NCBI RefSeq assembly: GCF_000382705.1
Contig: NZ_ARQE01000001.1
Span: 41,547 to 105,546 of the forward strand
Length of the DNA: 64,000 bases
Source: Aureimonas ureilytica DSM 18598 = NBRC 106430
GTDB lineage: Bacteria; Pseudomonadota; Alphaproteobacteria; Rhizobiales; Rhizobiaceae
Reading direction: 5' to 3'
Of the stretch, positions 23,863 through 30,454 are shown piece after piece. The translations under genes were made by a program, and so were the position numbers. How positions within the stretch are numbered: position 1 is the first letter of the stretch; each line of letters begins with the position of its first letter. The notes beneath the pieces are model-generated. The model was not told the DNA's origin. It did not search any database and worked only from the letters and a program-made list of their open reading frames with translations.

Positions 23863-24082
23863 CGGCGCTGCGGCGCGCGCATTGCGCGGCCGGGGCTCGA
23901 ATGAGCAAAAACATCCGCTTGAGTGGCGCCGAAGGAAATCCTCTTCGGCGCAACCACGCTGGCATTGGATTATTTAGAACGATAACAAGCGAGCCGCGAC
24001 ATCTCTTCGGATGTCGGGAGGTGTCTTCGTGGCCGCCGCGCGATCGGCGGCCGGGAAGGCCGGCAGAAAAGGACCATCGGGA

Positions 24083-24421
24083 ATGGCGAGCGACGTCAAG
24101 GCGGGTGCGAAGACCAAGGGGCCGAAGCTCCCCGTCATCATGAGCGCCAACGACCTTCTGGACGGCGACGTCGTGTTCCTGACCCGCGAGGGCTGGAGCC
24201 TCGACCCCAAGGCCGCGCTGGTGGCTGATGATGCCGAGACGGTCGCCTTCATGGAAGACGCGGGCGCCAGGGGCTTCAAGGGCAATCAGGTCGTCGATCC
24301 CTATCTCGTCGAGGTCACGCTCGACGCGGACGGGCTGCCGGTCGCCACGCATTTTCGCGAGGCGATCCGCCAGAAGGGTCCGAGCATTCTGCCGCAATAC
24401 GGCAAGCAGGCTGAATTTTAA
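24083..24421 (+). CDS. DUF2849 domain protein of the sulfite reductase operon
   Basis: A 112-residue protein with the DUF2849 pattern VIMSANDLLDGDVVFLTREGWS and a C-terminal GPSILPQYGKQAEF. Members of this family typically sit immediately before the sulfite reductase hemoprotein gene in alphaproteobacteria, as here (85-bp gap). It may be a small accessory factor for siroheme enzyme maturation or electron supply; no activity is known to me. The start is ATG 24083; GGGA lies close upstream. The 220 bp before it probably hold the operon promoter in an AT-rich stretch at about 23960-23990, but no CysB-type box was recognised. Confidence 0.85.
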   Translation: MASDVKAGAKTKGPKLPVIMSANDLLDGDVVFLTREGWSLDPKAALVADDAETVAFMEDAGARGFKGNQVVDPYLVEVTLDADGLPVATHFREAIRQKGPSILPQYGKQAEF

Positions 24422-24506
24422 GCGTTTCGGGATGGGGAGCCCTTAAGCGCTCTCACCACCCACCGGGCGCCCGCAAGAGCGCCGGAACCGATCGAGGACG
24501 ACAGGC

Positions 24507-26198
24507 ATGTATCGGTACGACGAATTCGACGAGCGCTTCGTGCGCGAGCGCGTCCAGCAGTTTCGCCATCAGGTGGAGCGCCGGCTCGACGGCTCGCTCT
24601 CGGACGACGAGTTCAAGCCGCTGCGCCTCAAGAACGGCCTCTATCTCCAGCTGCACGCCTACATGCTGCGCGTCGCCGTGCCCTATGGCACGCTGAACTC
24701 CAAGCAGATGCGCCAGCTCGCCCTGATCGCCGAGAAATACGACAAGGGCTACGCGCATTTCACCACGCGCCAGAACCTTCAGTACAATTGGCCGAAGCTG
24801 CGCGACGTCCCCGACATCATGGACCTTCTGGCCGATGTCGAGATGCACTGCATCCAGACCTCGGGCAATTGCATCCGCAACGTCACGGCGGACCAGTTCG
24901 CCGGCGTCGCCGCCGACGAGGTGGAAGACCCGCGCCCGACCGGCGAGCTGATCCGCCAGTGGTCGAGCCTGCATCCGGAATTTTCCTGGCTGCCGCGCAA
25001 GTTCAAGATCGCCGTGACCGGCGCCGAGCATGACCGCGCGGCGATCAAGGTCCACGATATCGGCCTGCGCATCCTGCGCCACGCGGAAACCAACGAGATC
25101 GGCTACGAGGTCGTCGTGGGCGGCGGTCTCGGCCGCACGCCGATGGTCGGCAAGGTGATCCGCGACTTCCTGCCCAAGGCCGAGCTGCTCGCCTATCTCG
25201 AGGCGATCATGCGCGTCTACAACGCGGAAGGCCGGCGCGACAACAAGTACAAGGCGCGCGTGAAGATCCTCGTCCACGAGATCGGCACGGACGAGTTCAA
25301 GGCTCGCGTCGAAGCCGAATATGCTGAGCTCAACGGCCCGACGATCAACGCGCCGGCGGAAGAAGTGGAGCGCATCGCGCGCTATTTCGCGGCCCCCGCC
25401 TACGAGACCCTGCCCGAGTCCTCTTCGGTGCTGGAGGCCGCCCGCGCGGCCGACCCGGAACTCGACCGCTTCGTGGAGCAGAACGGCTTTGCGCATCGCC
25501 AGCCCGGCTATATCGCGCTGACCGTCTCCTTGAAGCCCATCGGCGGCGTGCCGGGCGACATGTCGGACAAGGAAATGCGCGCCTTCGCCGATATCGCGGA
25601 GCGCTATTCGTTTGACGAGTTCCGCGTGACGCACGTCCAGAACCTCGTTCTGCCGCATGTGCGCAAGGACGACGTGCCGGCGGTCTACGCCGCGCTGAAG
25701 GCGGCGGGCCTTGCCACCGCCAATGCCGGTCTCGTCACCGACATCATCGCCTGCCCCGGCCTCGATTATTGCGCGCTGGCGACGGCCCGCTCGATCCCGA
25801 TCGCGCAGGACATTTCCAATCTCTACGCCGACGAGGCCAAGCAGAAGGAGGTCGGTCCGCTCCAGATCAAGATCTCGGGCTGCATCAACGCCTGCGGCCA
25901 CCACCATGTCGGCCATATCGGCATTCTCGGCCTCGAAAAGTCGGGCCGCGAGAATTACCAGATCACGGTCGGCGGCGACGCCTCCGAACATGCCGCGCTC
26001 GGCGAGCGCGTCGGGCCGGGCATCGACGCCGAACAGGTGCCGGGCGCGATCGAAGCGCTGGTCGGCGTCTACATGAGCGAGCGGCAGACGGGCGAAACCT
26101 TCATCGACACGGTGAAGCGCGCGGGGCTGGAGCCCTTCAAGCAGGGCTTCACGGCCTATGTCGCGGGCAGCACGGCGGGTGAAGGAGCGCACGCATGA
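24507..26198 (+). CDS. cysI: Assimilatory sulfite reductase hemoprotein (nitrite/sulfite reductase family)
   Basis: Siroheme-[4Fe-4S] enzyme of 563 residues that reduces sulfite to sulfide for cysteine synthesis. Two ferredoxin-like half domains are followed by two siroheme domains. Cluster ligands are C416-x5-C422 (CPGLDYC) and C459-x3-C463 (GCINACG). N-terminal arginines in AHFTTRQNLQYNW contact siroheme. Length and its DUF2849/DUF934 neighbours fit the rhizobial single-subunit, probably ferredoxin-dependent enzyme; no CysJ flavoprotein gene is in the operon. Its stop overlaps the DUF934 start by 4 bp. Confidence 0.94.
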   Translation: MYRYDEFDERFVRERVQQFRHQVERRLDGSLSDDEFKPLRLKNGLYLQLHAYMLRVAVPYGTLNSKQMRQLALIAEKYDKGYAHFTTRQNLQYNWPKLRDVPDIMDLLADVEMHCIQTSGNCIRNVTADQFAGVAADEVEDPRPTGELIRQWSSLHPEFSWLPRKFKIAVTGAEHDRAAIKVHDIGLRILRHAETNEIGYEVVVGGGLGRTPMVGKVIRDFLPKAELLAYLEAIMRVYNAEGRRDNKYKARVKILVHEIGTDEFKARVEAEYAELNGPTINAPAEEVERIARYFAAPAYETLPESSSVLEAARAADPELDRFVEQNGFAHRQPGYIALTVSLKPIGGVPGDMSDKEMRAFADIAERYSFDEFRVTHVQNLVLPHVRKDDVPAVYAALKAAGLATANAGLVTDIIACPGLDYCALATARSIPIAQDISNLYADEAKQKEVGPLQIKISGCINACGHHHVGHIGILGLEKSGRENYQITVGGDASEHAALGERVGPGIDAEQVPGAIEALVGVYMSERQTGETFIDTVKRAGLEPFKQGFTAYVAGSTAGEGAHA

Positions 26199-26713
26199 GC
26201 CTTCTCGTCACCGCCGCCGGAGAGAAGACCGACGAGTTCACCCCTGTCGAGGACATTGCCGATCTGTCCTTGAGCGAGGGCGCGGTTCTCGTGCCGCTCA
26301 CCGTCATCGATCAGGCCATTGCCGACCGGCGCAACGCGCCCTTGGGTCTGGCGGTCGCCGGCGACGCGCCGGTCTGCGCCGTCGAGCCCTATTTCGGGCA
26401 GGTGGAGCTGATCTCGGTTCGCTTTCCGTCCTTCTCGGACGGGCGCGGCTTCTCGCTCGCCAAGCGCCTGCGCCGCGCGGGCTTTTCCGGTACGCTGCGC
26501 GCCAGCGGCCCCCTCATCGCGGACCAGTTCGCCGAGGCGCTCGCCTGCGGCTTCGATGAGGTCTGGCTGCCCGACCAGATGGCCGAGCGCCAGCCTGTTG
26601 ATCAATGGATGAAGGCCAAGGACATCGTCCGCGACCATTACCAGACGGGCTATGGCGAGGATCAGAGCATCCTGCAGAAGCGCCTCGCCGCCCGCGCGGG
26701 AGAGGCCGCATGA
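26195..26713 (+). CDS. DUF934 protein of the sulfate assimilation operon
   Basis: A 172-residue soluble protein with the DUF934 features VEPYFGQVELISVRFPSFSDGRGFSLAKRLR and GFDEVWLPDQ. The family is found almost only between sulfite reductase and CysH genes in proteobacteria, and it overlaps both here by 4 bp (ATGA at each junction), so all three are translationally coupled. Its biochemical role is not established; a link to electron supply or assembly of sulfite reductase is inferred from context. Confidence 0.9.
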   Translation: MSLLVTAAGEKTDEFTPVEDIADLSLSEGAVLVPLTVIDQAIADRRNAPLGLAVAGDAPVCAVEPYFGQVELISVRFPSFSDGRGFSLAKRLRRAGFSGTLRASGPLIADQFAEALACGFDEVWLPDQMAERQPVDQWMKAKDIVRDHYQTGYGEDQSILQKRLAARAGEAA

Positions 26714-27489
26714 GCGCCGAGCTCGCGCAGGAGCTGAACGACAGCTTCGCGGGCCTTAAGCCCAATGAGCGCCTGCGCCTTCTGACGGAGCGCCTGCCCG
26801 GCCGCATCGTCTTCACGACCTCGCTCGGCATCGAGGACCAGATGCTGACCCATCTGATCTTCCGAGAGAAGCTGGCGATCGACGTCGTGACGCTCGACAC
26901 CGGCCGCCTGTTTCCCGAGACCTACCAACTCTGGCAGCAGACGGAAGAGACCTATGGCCGGCGCATCAAGGCGAAATATCCGCAGGCCGAAGCGCTCGAA
27001 GAGCTGATCGGCGATCAGGGCATCAACGGCTTCTATTTCGCGCCCGAAATGCGCAAGGCCTGCTGCGGCGTGCGCAAGGTGGAGCCGCTCGGCCGCGCTC
27101 TGTCGGGCGCGTCGGGCTGGATCACGGGCCTGCGCCGCGACCAGTCGGCCAATCGCGAGCGGCTCGACTTCGTGTCCTTCGACGGCGCGCGCGGCCTCAT
27201 CAAGGCCAACCCGCTCTTCGACTGGACGCGCGAGGAAATCCGCGTCTTCACGGTCGACCACGCCGTGCCGGTGAACCCGCTGCACGATCAGGGCTTTCTC
27301 TCCATCGGCTGCGCCCCCTGCACCCGCGCCATCCGCCCCGGCGAGGTCGAGCGGGCGGGCCGCTGGTGGTGGGAAGAGGAAACCAAGCGCGAATGCGGCC
27401 TGCATGTGGACGAGGCCGGCCTGCCCGTGCGCGCGGAAGACGGCCGCCCCGCCCCCGGCGACAGCGCCTTCGAGACGATTCCCTCCTGA
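26710..27489 (+). CDS. cysH: Adenylyl-sulfate (APS) reductase, CysH type
   Basis: Thioredoxin-dependent reductase of 259 residues that converts APS to sulfite. The [4Fe-4S] ligands C118 C119 (KACCGVRK) and C201-x2-C204 (GCAPCTR) mark it as an APS-using enzyme and not a cluster-free PAPS reductase. The catalytic Cys is C229 in ECGLH, and the PP-loop-like segment FTTSLGIEDQ binds the nucleotide. This agrees with the absence of an APS kinase (CysC) in the operon. The start ATG overlaps the DUF934 stop. A 14-bp tandem repeat begins at its stop codon and runs into the gap before cysD. Confidence 0.94.
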   Translation: MSAELAQELNDSFAGLKPNERLRLLTERLPGRIVFTTSLGIEDQMLTHLIFREKLAIDVVTLDTGRLFPETYQLWQQTEETYGRRIKAKYPQAEALEELIGDQGINGFYFAPEMRKACCGVRKVEPLGRALSGASGWITGLRRDQSANRERLDFVSFDGARGLIKANPLFDWTREEIRVFTVDHAVPVNPLHDQGFLSIGCAPCTRAIRPGEVERAGRWWWEEETKRECGLHVDEAGLPVRAEDGRPAPGDSAFETIPS

Positions 27490-27541
27490 TCGGCCCGTTC
27501 TGATCGGCTGCTTCTGACTGGCCCTGCCTGACTGGACTGCG
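27486..27541. repeat. Four 14-bp degenerate tandem repeats after cysH
   Basis: Four contiguous 14-bp units start at 27486, 27500, 27514 and 27528, each beginning CTGAYYGG (CTGATCGG twice, then CTGACTGG twice). The first unit contains the cysH stop codon. The array fills half of the 111-bp gap to cysD, the only sizeable gap within the sulfate operon. It looks like slipped-strand duplication; a regulatory role is untested. Confidence 0.75.
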
Positions 27542-27600
27542 CCGACTTATTCCCCTTCTCAGCCGCGCCCGCGCCTGCCGGGCGTCAAAGGTCCCCTGCC

Positions 27601-28503
27601 ATGAAGCACATGACCCATCTCCAGAGCCTCGAGGCGGAGTCGATCTACATCATCCGCGAAGTGGCGGCGACGGCCGAGAACCCGGTGATGCTCTTCTCCA
27701 TCGGCAAGGATTCGATGGTCATGCTGCATCTGGCGCGCAAGGCCTTCGCGCCGGGCAAGCTGCCCTTCCCGCTGCTCCATGTCGACACGACCTGGAAGTT
27801 CCGCGAGATGATCGAGTTTCGCGACCGCATCGCGCGCGAATGGGATCTCGACCTCCTCGTTCACACGAACGAGGAGGGCCTGAAGGCCGGCATCAACCCG
27901 TTCGATTCCGGCTCGCGCCTCCACACGGACGTGATGAAGACGGAAGGGCTGAAGCAGGCGCTCGGCAAGTACAAGTTCGACGCGGCCTTCGGCGGCGCGC
28001 GGCGCGACGAGGAGAAGAGCCGCGCCAAGGAGCGCGTCTTCTCGCTGCGCTCGGCCGAGCATCGCTGGGAGCCCAAGAACCAGCGCCCCGAGCCCTGGCA
28101 CCTCTTCAACACCCGTAAGCGCCAGGGCGAAAGTTTTCGCGTGTTTCCCTTGTCCAATTGGACCGAGGCCGACGTGTGGGACTATATCGCGCTGGAAGAC
28201 ATTCCCGTCGTGCCGCTCTACTTCGCCAAGCACCGCCCCGTGGTCTCGCGCGACGGCACGCTGATCATGCGCGACGACGAGCGCATGAAGCTCGCCGAGG
28301 GTGAGGCGACATCGGACGAGCTGGTCCGCTTCCGCACGCTCGGCTGCTATCCGCTGACGGGCGCGGTGCGCTCCACCGCCACGACGCTGCCCGAGATCAT
28401 CGCCGAGATGCGCGCCTCCCGCTCCTCCGAGCGCGAGGGCCGGGTGATCGACCGCGACGGCGGCGCCTCCATGGAAGAAAAGAAGCAGGAAGGGTATTTC
28501 TGA
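27601..28503 (+). CDS. cysD: Sulfate adenylyltransferase subunit 2
   Basis: Catalytic subunit (300 residues) of the heterodimeric ATP sulfurylase, making APS from sulfate and ATP. The PP-loop is seen as [13 protein letters not shown], followed by [14 protein letters not shown], the [14 protein letters not shown] active-site segment and the C-terminal GRVIDRD. Length is typical. ATG at 27601 or the second Met codon at 27610 may be used. The stop overlaps the cysN start by one base (TGATG), so the two subunits are translationally coupled. Confidence 0.96.
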
Positions 28504-30275
28504 TGTCCGCGGCACGCCCTTCCTCCGCAGAAGCCGACGCAGCCCTCGACAGCGCCACCAACCGCGCGGCGCTGGCCGAGGACCAGACCTTCGCCGGTCC
28601 GGCCCCGGACGACGCGCCGCTCGATGCCTCGCTTGACCCCGCGAAGGCCGCCGACCTGCGCGCGCAAGCCGCTGCCGTGGCCGCCGCCGGCGCCAAGGCC
28701 TCGCTCCTGCGCTTCATCACCTGCGGCTCGGTGGACGACGGCAAGTCCACGCTGATCGGCCGGCTTCTCTTCGACACCAATTCCGTCTTCGACGACCAGA
28801 TGGAAGCGCTTCAGCGCGACTCCAAGAAGTTCGGCACGACGGGCAGCGATCTCGACTTCGCGCTTCTGGTGGACGGGCTCTCGGCCGAGCGCGAGCAGGG
28901 CATCACGATCGACGTCGCCTATCGCTACTTCAACACGAAGAAGCGCGCCTTCATCATCGCCGACACGCCGGGGCACGAGCAGTACACCCGCAACATGGCG
29001 ACCGGCGCGAGCCAGGCCGAACTCGCCATCATCCTCGTGGACGCGCGCAAGGGCATCCTGGCCCAGACGCGGCGGCACTCCTTCATCACCTCCATGGTCG
29101 GCATCAAGTCCGTCATCGTGGCGGTGAACAAGATGGACCTCGTGGAGTTCAGCGAGAGCGTCTTCAACGAGATCGTCGCGGGCTACAAGGCGCTGCTCCC
29201 CCATCTCGGCTTCACGGATGTGCGCTACATCCCGCTCTCGGCCAAGAACGGCGACAATCTCGCCGAGCGCTCCGCCCACACGCCCTGGTACAAGGGACCG
29301 ACGCTCTTGGAGACGCTGGAAGAGGTGGAGCCGCAGACCTTTGCGGCCGGCTCGCCGCATTTCCGCCTGCCGGTGCAATGGGTGAACCGCCCCAATCTCG
29401 ACTTCCGCGGCTTCTGCGGAACGGCGGCGGGCGGGCGCATTTCGCAGGGCGACGCGGTTCTCTCCCTGCCGAGCCGACAGCGCTCCACCGTCAAGGCCGT
29501 CTACGGGCCGAACGGGCAGGTGGAGAGCGCCGAGGACGGCGAGGCGATCACGCTGACGCTGAACGACGAGATCGACGCTTCGCGCGGCGACGTGCTCGTC
29601 AAGGTCGGCGATCCGATCGCCGCGCATCGCACCCTCCAGGCCGAAATCCTCTGGATGGTGGATCGCCCGCTCATCGCCGGCGGGCGCTTCGTCGCCAAGC
29701 TTTCCAGCGCGCAGACGCCCGTCAACGTGCGCTCGCTGGACGAGGCGGTGGACATCCATTCCTACCAGCCGCGCTCGGCCAACGCCCTTCTCATGAACGA
29801 GATCGGCCGCGTCACGCTGCAATTCGACAAGCCGCCGGTGGCGACGCTCTATTCGGAAAGCCGCGAGCTGGGCGCCTTCATCCTGATCGACCCGCTCACC
29901 AACGAGACGGTGGCGCTCGGCATCGTGACCGGCCTGCCGCGCGTCGAGGACGCGCCCGGCACGGCGGCGCGCTCGGCGCAGGCCGCGAGTCCCGCCGCGC
30001 CCCGCTCGCAGTTCGAGCGTGTGAGAGCCGAATGGCTCGGTCCGGCGCTCGCCGCCGATCCCGCGCGCGCGCGCGGCGTCACGATCTTCCGCGCGGCGGC
30101 GGCCGTCGCCATCGGCCTCTTCGCGCTGATCCTCGGCCTCGCGCTCTGGAAGGCGGTGCTGCTGGGCGCGCTCGATTTCGCGCTGCGTCCGCTCCTGCGC
30201 CGGCTCATGGTGCCGGCCGAGACCGAGGCGGCGCCGGCCGATCCGACCACGGTCCGCGACGGCGAGGGCATCTGA
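28503..30275 (+). CDS. cysN: Sulfate adenylyltransferase subunit 1 with C-terminal membrane helix
   Basis: GTPase subunit of ATP sulfurylase, 590 residues. The GTPase core has G1 GSVDDGKS (75-82), DTPGHEQY, NKMD and SAKNGDN, followed by two beta-barrel domains ending near residue 490 (LGIVTGLPRV). Two features are odd. A ~65-residue Ala/Asp-rich N-terminal extension precedes the core. After the core, where CysNC fusions carry APS kinase, there is a linker and one hydrophobic helix (about 531-549, AVAIGLFALILGLALW) plus a basic amphipathic stretch. No APS kinase motif is present, which fits an APS-reductase pathway. The protein may therefore be anchored to the inner membrane. Its stop overlaps the next small membrane-protein gene (TGATG). 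Confidence 0.92.
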   Translation: MSAARPSSAEADAALDSATNRAALAEDQTFAGPAPDDAPLDASLDPAKAADLRAQAAAVAAAGAKASLLRFITCGSVDDGKSTLIGRLLFDTNSVFDDQMEALQRDSKKFGTTGSDLDFALLVDGLSAEREQGITIDVAYRYFNTKKRAFIIADTPGHEQYTRNMATGASQAELAIILVDARKGILAQTRRHSFITSMVGIKSVIVAVNKMDLVEFSESVFNEIVAGYKALLPHLGFTDVRYIPLSAKNGDNLAERSAHTPWYKGPTLLETLEEVEPQTFAAGSPHFRLPVQWVNRPNLDFRGFCGTAAGGRISQGDAVLSLPSRQRSTVKAVYGPNGQVESAEDGEAITLTLNDEIDASRGDVLVKVGDPIAAHRTLQAEILWMVDRPLIAGGRFVAKLSSAQTPVNVRSLDEAVDIHSYQPRSANALLMNEIGRVTLQFDKPPVATLYSESRELGAFILIDPLTNETVALGIVTGLPRVEDAPGTAARSAQAASPAAPRSQFERVRAEWLGPALAADPARARGVTIFRAAAAVAIGLFALILGLALWKAVLLGALDFALRPLLRRLMVPAETEAAPADPTTVRDGEGI

Positions 30276-30454
30276 TGCGCGGCGCCTCTTCCATGTGCGA
30301 AAGCGAGGGCGCGCTCGGCCGCGAGGCCCTCGCCGATCACGCCCGCACCGCGCGCGTCGCCGCCTGGCGCCGCCCGCGCCCGGTTCTGGACGCGGCGCTC
30401 CTCGCCGCCTCGCTGCTTCTCTGCACGGCGCTGGTGTTCGGCCCGCTGGTCTGA
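30275..30454 (+). CDS. Small single-pass membrane protein coupled to cysN
   Basis: A 59-residue open frame whose ATG overlaps the cysN stop codon by one base (TGATG), the same coupling used between cysD and cysN. The N-terminal ~35 residues are charged (Arg/Glu/Asp), then one clear transmembrane helix, VLDAALLAASLLLCTALVFG, ends the protein. No family was recognised. The position and the membrane helix at the end of CysN suggest the two proteins may pair in the membrane; this is inference. It could also be a decayed remnant of a longer gene. Confidence 0.6.
   Translation: MRGASSMCESEGALGREALADHARTARVAAWRRPRPVLDAALLAASLLLCTALVFGPLV

Follow-up and report, generated by a model that had tools for sequence, protein, structure and literature searches.

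We analysed the CysN protein encoded in a 64,000-nucleotide stretch of the Aureimonas ureilytica DSM 18598 = NBRC 106430 genome (contig NZ_ARQE01000001.1, positions 41,547 to 105,546), called the window below; all positions given are those of the window. The cysN gene (28503..30275, + strand) codes for a 590-residue ATP sulfurylase GTPase subunit in which a predicted hydrophobic hairpin replaces the adenosine 5'-phosphosulfate (APS) kinase. We propose that this conserved tail, predicted to form two helices, probably docks the ATP sulfurylase formed by CysD and CysN at the inner membrane, on its cytoplasmic side. This reading accounts best for a tail that shows conservation, strong hydrophobicity and a kinship, by way of intermediates, with a domain predicted to lie in membranes. 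An earlier reading of the same DNA, here called the original prediction, had already suggested that sulfate activation is tethered to the membrane; its docked CysN is retained as the best reading, and its small membrane protein as a necessary partner and its adjacent importer are not.

A predicted hydrophobic hairpin at the end of CysN

Judged by its profile matches, the window CysN is the GTPase subunit of ATP sulfurylase, predicted to carry out GTP-driven APS synthesis together with CysD. It scores 572 bits against TIGR02034 (cut-off 336.1), covering model positions 1-406 of 406, and 600.8 bits against NF003478 (cut-off 590). PDB chain 1zun_B aligns with residues 64-475 (2e-136), and the core of GTPase and barrel domains occupies approximately residues 64-477 (28692..29933, + strand). 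The closest homologue among the matches listed is an A. ureilytica protein with 98% identity. CysNC proteins carry an APS kinase domain at the C-terminus, and the window CysN, having no PF01583 match, is therefore not one of them. The original prediction held that the kinase was absent, and PF01583 indeed gave no match in the protein or in the whole assembly, which is listed as 99.98% complete.

The most hydrophobic 19-residue segment (19-mer) of CysN lies at residues 531-549, with a mean Kyte-Doolittle value of 2.42 in the window protein (locus L001) and also in homologue P0001. A hydrophobic helix had been foreseen at about this place, and the segment is consistent with it; the first 480 residues of P0001, which is 98% identical to the window CysN, contain no 19-mer above 1.48. 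In the AlphaFold2 model of the window protein, a low-confidence linker (487-497) and two short helices (503-512 and 514-518) lead into two long helices, and the tail is predicted to fold as a two-helix hairpin. Helix 1, also seen in hydropathy, spans residues 520-543 (30060..30131, + strand) and helix 2 residues 548-569 (30144..30209, + strand), the predicted local distance difference test scores (pLDDT) of their blocks being 86-97. Helix 2 is only marginally hydrophobic (best 19-mer 1.37), its milder hydropathy being due to the internal charges D558, R562, R566 and R567. Beyond it, a low-confidence stretch ends in a conserved motif, so that CysN terminates in RDGEGI (30255..30272, + strand; family form D/S-G-x-G-I). 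The single helix and basic tail that had been expected thus give way to a second predicted helix followed by a conserved end.

The hairpin is flanked by basic residues, before helix 1 and at the end of helix 2. By the positive-inside rule, basic flanks point to the cytoplasmic side, and their presence on both sides suggests that both ends of the hairpin are cytoplasmic.

Strong hydropathy is a regular property of the tail. The best tail 19-mer scores 2.32-2.83 in 21 Aureimonas and 2.12-2.86 in 13 other hairpin loci (L003-L015); in 17 Rhizobium-type CysNs of the same family, which end without the hairpin, the corresponding value is 0.35-1.45. A 19-mer of at least 1.6 was found in 110 of 114 listed tails, comprising all 79 of the nearer ones and 31 of the 35 more distant ones.

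Conservation and distribution of the tail

Homologues were taken as the best 120 of 8000 scored, and our alignment A1 contains 57 of these and the window CysN. The tail is present in 114 of the 120. The other six (P0017, P0076, P0080, P0088, P0093 and P0100) have no tail or are cut short and were left out of the tail counts by eye; among the 114 kept, helix 1 of P0107 is shortened and P0084 lacks its final stretch. Helix 2 carries the motif D558-x3-R562-P563 (30174..30191, + strand), in which each of the three residues is conserved in 54 of the 58 aligned CysNs, with E in two others at position 558 and K in two others at position 562. P0115 and P0119 have E-x3-K where most other CysN tails have D-x3-R. 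The pattern D-[FLAIV]-x-x-R-P recurs in 108 of the 114 tailed homologues among the matches listed, and the GxGI end in 106; in A1, Gly 587 is found in 54 and Ile 590 in 53 of the 58 sequences.

The original prediction would have failed had the helix not been conserved in relatives; the tail is kept in 21 of 21 Aureimonas genomes. In a Rhizobiaceae-wide sample, 107 of 121 genomes had a CysN match, and in 15 the alignment continued past residue 570. Hairpin CysNs were found under names that include Aureimonas, Aurantimonas, Jiella, Fulvimarina, Mangrovicella, Consotaella, Bartonella sp., Candidatus Tokpelaia and Bosea. A protein search with the tail region of P0109 returned no match but P0109 itself. 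A tblastn search of plasmids with P0099 matched 318 records, and in the 60 listed the match stops by residue 459 of 519, before the tail.

Origin of the tail and its probable relationship to DUF2061

DUF2061 (PF09834) is a predicted membrane domain, a unit of about 50 residues (the model has 52 positions) whose second half carries an acid-x3-base pair, like the CysN hairpin. The two features by which we describe DUF2061, a hairpin and an acid-x3-base pair in helix 2, both occur in the window CysN, as the AlphaFold2 hairpin and the D558/R562 pair; the window hairpin differs in not matching the Pfam model. Of the 58 CysNs in A1, seven match PF09834 at E up to 1, the best at 3.7e-15. An AlphaFold2 model of one DUF2061-bearing CysN, P0105, is weaker (mean pLDDT 63.1) and has a hairpin at the same place, with a block pLDDT of 76-89. 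When the hairpin alone was compared, the last 20 residues having been cut, the window group and the DUF2061-bearing CysN group aligned with an hhalign probability of 95.6%, the best of 60 column shuffles giving 16.2%; the DUF2061-bearing group in turn aligned with 30 stand-alone DUF2061 proteins at 96.2%. From these comparisons, the window tail may well descend from a DUF2061-type domain, the link running through intermediates only.

We built a tree of 87 chosen CysN cores (46 hairpin rows and 41 others), rooted for drawing only. The hairpin rows are mostly the best matches of the full-length window CysN, so the sample favours the window group. One branch, with support 100/99, separates 45 of the 46 hairpin CysNs from all 41 other rows; the 46th, L189, sits among CysNC proteins. 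With the root placed for drawing, calling the hairpin group a clade is our inference. The window's own subgroup contains none of the DUF2061-like rows; one CysN group holds both forms of the tail. The simplest account of the hairpin CysNs would be one fusion followed by divergence.

A survey of 385 genomes of the class found DUF2061 matches in 79, and we examined 93 loci, a part of all matches. In four of these the domain is fused to CysN. L188 is a CysN with fused DUF2061 inside the hairpin group. L189, the hairpin row placed among CysNC proteins, is a CysN-DUF2061. L225 is a CysN-DUF2061 cut by a contig end, and among 18 sequences compared it is closest to L189 (59%). In L190 (genome G176, contig C50), one open frame encodes CysN-CysC-DUF2061, so that, unlike the window CysN, this protein has both the CysNC kinase and DUF2061. 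None of the 18 others compared exceeds 38% identity to the CysN part of L190. By this evidence, DUF2061 appears to have been joined to sulfate-activation proteins about three times, in the hairpin group, in L189 with L225, and in L190. In five other loci (L032, L036, L043, L046 and L056; four from one genus and one from another family of the class), a stand-alone DUF2061 gene directly follows cysH.

Proposed membrane docking and its alternatives

Several results weigh against docking or against the kinship with DUF2061. Four of the 35 more distant tails have no 19-mer reaching 1.6. Somewhere after the core, CysNC proteins, presumed soluble, rise as high as 2.18 (median 1.57, n=65), so hydropathy alone is no proof. 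The insertion of both helices is uncertain, given that helix 2 reaches only 1.37. Membership of DUF2061 by direct match was rejected: the window CysN has no PF09834 match at E 1 and the window genome none at E 0.1, and direct profile comparison of the window-group tail with the 30 stand-alone DUF2061 proteins gave 0.9%, a value that 60 shuffles exceed (up to 2.3%). Two other tail groups compared in this way gave 1.6% and 43.0%. The pattern E-x3-[KRQ] occurs in only 20 of the 30 stand-alone proteins. The GxGI end is missing in 8 of the 114 tails and also in L189 and L225, and two CysNC proteins without the hairpin carry it. These are L137 (Aminobacter), which ends in D-D-G-G-G-I, and L145 (Hyphomonas), which ends in G-P-G-S-G-I; because of them, whatever the GxGI end binds may be shared by sulfate activation in general and not be tied to the hairpin. 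Twelve of the 21 Aureimonas keep the tail together with a strong APS kinase match elsewhere, and a 13th genome, G512, is marginal; the tail therefore does not depend on the absence of APS kinase, and an origin of the tail as a consequence of that absence is ruled out. Lastly, 84 of the 93 DUF2061 loci have none of six cys queries within flanks of 1.5-2.5 kb, which indicates that DUF2061 is not specific to sulfate.

The strongest rival to docking is that the hairpin is soluble or bound to a surface and makes CysDN oligomerise, taking the structural role of the absent APS kinase domain. The charged and only marginally hydrophobic helix 2 would suit such a role, as would the weak hydropathy of the four distant tails and the range of the stand-alone DUF2061 proteins, whose best 19-mers score 1.24-2.22. 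We nevertheless consider oligomerisation unlikely, since helix 1 at 2.1-2.9 (in the Aureimonas-Aurantimonas group and its neighbours) exceeds the 1.48 of the soluble core, and since the related Pfam family is named as a predicted membrane protein.

If the tail docks CysN, both helices would either dip into the membrane or rest on it, both ends being cytoplasmic. The D/R pair (E/K in DUF2061) could pack against another helix, either from a second copy or from a membrane partner, and the GxGI end, back in the cytoplasm, could bind a membrane partner or CysD. In appearance, the acid-base pair of helix 2 and the free GxGI terminus are closer to sites of contact than to parts of a plain anchor. The probable benefit would be that incoming sulfate is converted to APS at the point of entry, and the APS might then be handed to the APS-type CysH encoded in the same run of genes without a CysC step. 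A broader proposal, which we regard as rather doubtful, gives DUF2061 hairpins a general role in sulfate assimilation as modules for docking at the membrane. CysN or CysNC would have captured them at least three times, and they also occur after cysH; they would bring the sulfate importer, CysDN and APS reductase together in a single line on the membrane, contacts being made through the acid-base pair and the GxGI end.

The small open reading frame and sulfate importers

An open reading frame (ORF) of 59 amino acids, a predicted single-pass membrane protein, follows cysN with a TGATG overlap (30275..30454, + strand); its hydrophobic stretch is at residues 37-55 (30383..30439, + strand). The original prediction described it in these terms, and the ORF does start within the cysN stop codon. 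Also as described, the same TGATG overlap couples cysN to cysD, which lies directly 5' of it. Of all 53 window genes called, cysN alone has a small hydrophobic ORF overlapping its end.

Four proteins of 58-59 amino acids match the small ORF, one of which, P0121, is 97% identical. The ORF occurs in 3 of 21 Aureimonas and is absent from the 18 others, which keep the CysN tail. Among the 13 other hairpin loci, four (L005, L007, L010 and L012) have a small ORF with an overlapping ATG; weaker candidates start with TTG in L008 and four bases downstream in L011, and seven have none. Conservation of the small gene, which the original prediction needed, is thus only half borne out. All nine small proteins aligned have an acidic residue close to where the hydrophobic stretch begins and, later on, a Gly; eight have a Cys. 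The ratio of nonsynonymous to synonymous substitution (dN/dS) between pairs of the three Aureimonas copies is 0.34-0.73, as against 0.23-0.29 for the last 90 cysN codons in the same pairs, which indicates modest purifying selection, weaker than on cysN. The small ORF is likely translated, and by its distribution the small gene is an optional accessory outside the core arrangement. Where present, its product may serve as an accessory helix of the docked assembly.

We also considered whether the GxGI end is conserved as a Shine-Dalgarno sequence for the small gene; this is ruled out, as the motif is kept where no small ORF follows (for example L002, L003, L004 and L009). Outside the Rhizobiaceae, L188 (genome G309) has a hairpin CysN ending in DGGGI and then a 48-amino-acid hydrophobic ORF overlapping by ATGA, which by eye is unlike the Aureimonas small protein. 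Where the small gene starts at ATGA (L005, L010, L012 and L188), the last CysN codon is ATA, and elsewhere it is mostly ATC, as if ATA had been chosen to create the start codon; one exception is L204, which has ATA and no small gene.

The location had been suggested to be perhaps near a sulfate importer. A whole-genome search of two families, sulfate ATP-binding cassette (ABC) binding proteins and SulP-type transporters, found none adjoining the operon, and a Pfam scan of eight neighbouring genes found no sulfate transporter. Both sulfate ABC binding proteins that pass the cut-off map away from the window contig, to C13 and C2; of the SulP-type transporters, one maps to C4 and another lies on the window contig (C1), about 40 kb away. 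A neighbouring importer is ruled out for the two families searched, and the gene neighbourhood gives no support to an importer as the docking partner.

These results bear on the arrangement first proposed, in which CysN and the 59-residue protein form an obligate membrane pair beside a sulfate importer. The TGATG or ATGA overlap, the residues shared by the small proteins and the dN/dS values of the three pairs are in its favour. We think such a pair very improbable, because the small gene is missing in 18 of 21 tailed Aureimonas and in seven of the 13 other hairpin loci, and because the importers of the two families are not adjacent. We likewise give little credence to the hairpin as a regulator that senses the membrane or an ion and switches the GTPase activity of CysN, docking being secondary: the conserved acid-base pair and free C-terminal motif do suggest more than a passive anchor, but the GTPase and barrel domains look ordinary. 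That the tail is drifting sequence without function is scarcely credible, for despite the low identity between the tails of distant groups, D, R, P, G and I are nearly invariant, all 21 Aureimonas keep the tail, and similar fusions arose more than once.

Gene context

Seven genes run in one direction from 24011 to 30454: a DUF2849 gene (24011..24421; PF11011), a sulfite/nitrite reductase haemoprotein-like gene (24507..26198; PF01077 and PF03460), a DUF934 gene (26195..26713; PF06073), cysH (26710..27489), cysD (27601..28503), cysN and the 59-codon ORF, all on the + strand. CysD, the catalytic subunit of ATP sulfurylase, scores 495 bits against TIGR02039 (cut-off 396.6). For cysH we took as the start the ATG that overlaps the stop of the DUF934 gene; the interval scanned, 26641-27486, begins in frame 23 codons upstream. 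CysH is of the APS-reductase type (TIGR02055, 248.2 bits, cut-off 235.3), and the model for the 3'-phosphoadenosine 5'-phosphosulfate (PAPS) type, TIGR02057, gave 158.2 bits, under its cut-off of 254.2. With an APS-type CysH and no APS kinase in the assembly, the pathway as read from the genome needs APS only, and the missing CysC leaves no gap.

The N-terminal extension of CysN (residues 1-63, 28503-28690) contains a stretch resembling D-x-T/A-F-A-G-P-A-P-D, which recurs in several Aureimonas, Jiella and Fulvimarina CysNs in alignment A1. Despite this recurring stretch, the extension is modelled with low confidence.

Comparison with known systems and implications

Assimilatory ATP sulfurylase is generally treated as a soluble enzyme. 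The window CysN shares its GTPase and barrel domains (64-475) and the cysD-cysN coupling with the CysN of CysDN (TIGR02034; 1zun chain B), and adds about 110 residues comprising the hairpin and the conserved end, whereas the 17 Rhizobium-type CysNs have a non-hydrophobic end of 57-68 residues. CysNC, whose length class accounts for 65 of 80 named CysN loci in our sample (six did not parse by motif), likewise has an extra C-terminal module after the same core, APS kinase there and the hairpin here. A loose parallel is YgbE (DUF3561) of Escherichia coli K-12, annotated as an inner-membrane gene directly after cysDNC. YgbE is a separate gene after cysC, whereas the window hairpin is a domain of CysN, and the parallel drawn here is one of gene position.

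In the available parts of the source, YgbE is described as having "no known function", and its overexpression leads to phage T4 resistance (PMC7553319). In the accessible portions of other papers, DUF2061 genes are tabulated as iron-responsive or regulated (PMC3751524, PMC12442407) or appear in a table of mutations (PMC13361928), and polymyxin B resistance at elevated calcium is reported to be impaired when one of them, PA3237, is mutated (PMC12632274); the same portions of these four papers give no DUF2061 mechanism or link to sulfate. Among the matches listed from the open literature (subscription journals and preprints being outside its scope), there was no membrane-anchored CysN and no mechanism for DUF2061. 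The enzyme itself is known, and the predicted membrane-hairpin form of CysN is new within the open literature searched.

If docking is correct, sulfur assimilation would begin at the inner membrane and not free in the cell. The predicted membrane hairpin would make a coupling between sulfate uptake and sulfate activation directly testable in these alphaproteobacteria, and the hairpin CysN offers a concrete lead on the role of DUF2061 in part of its range.

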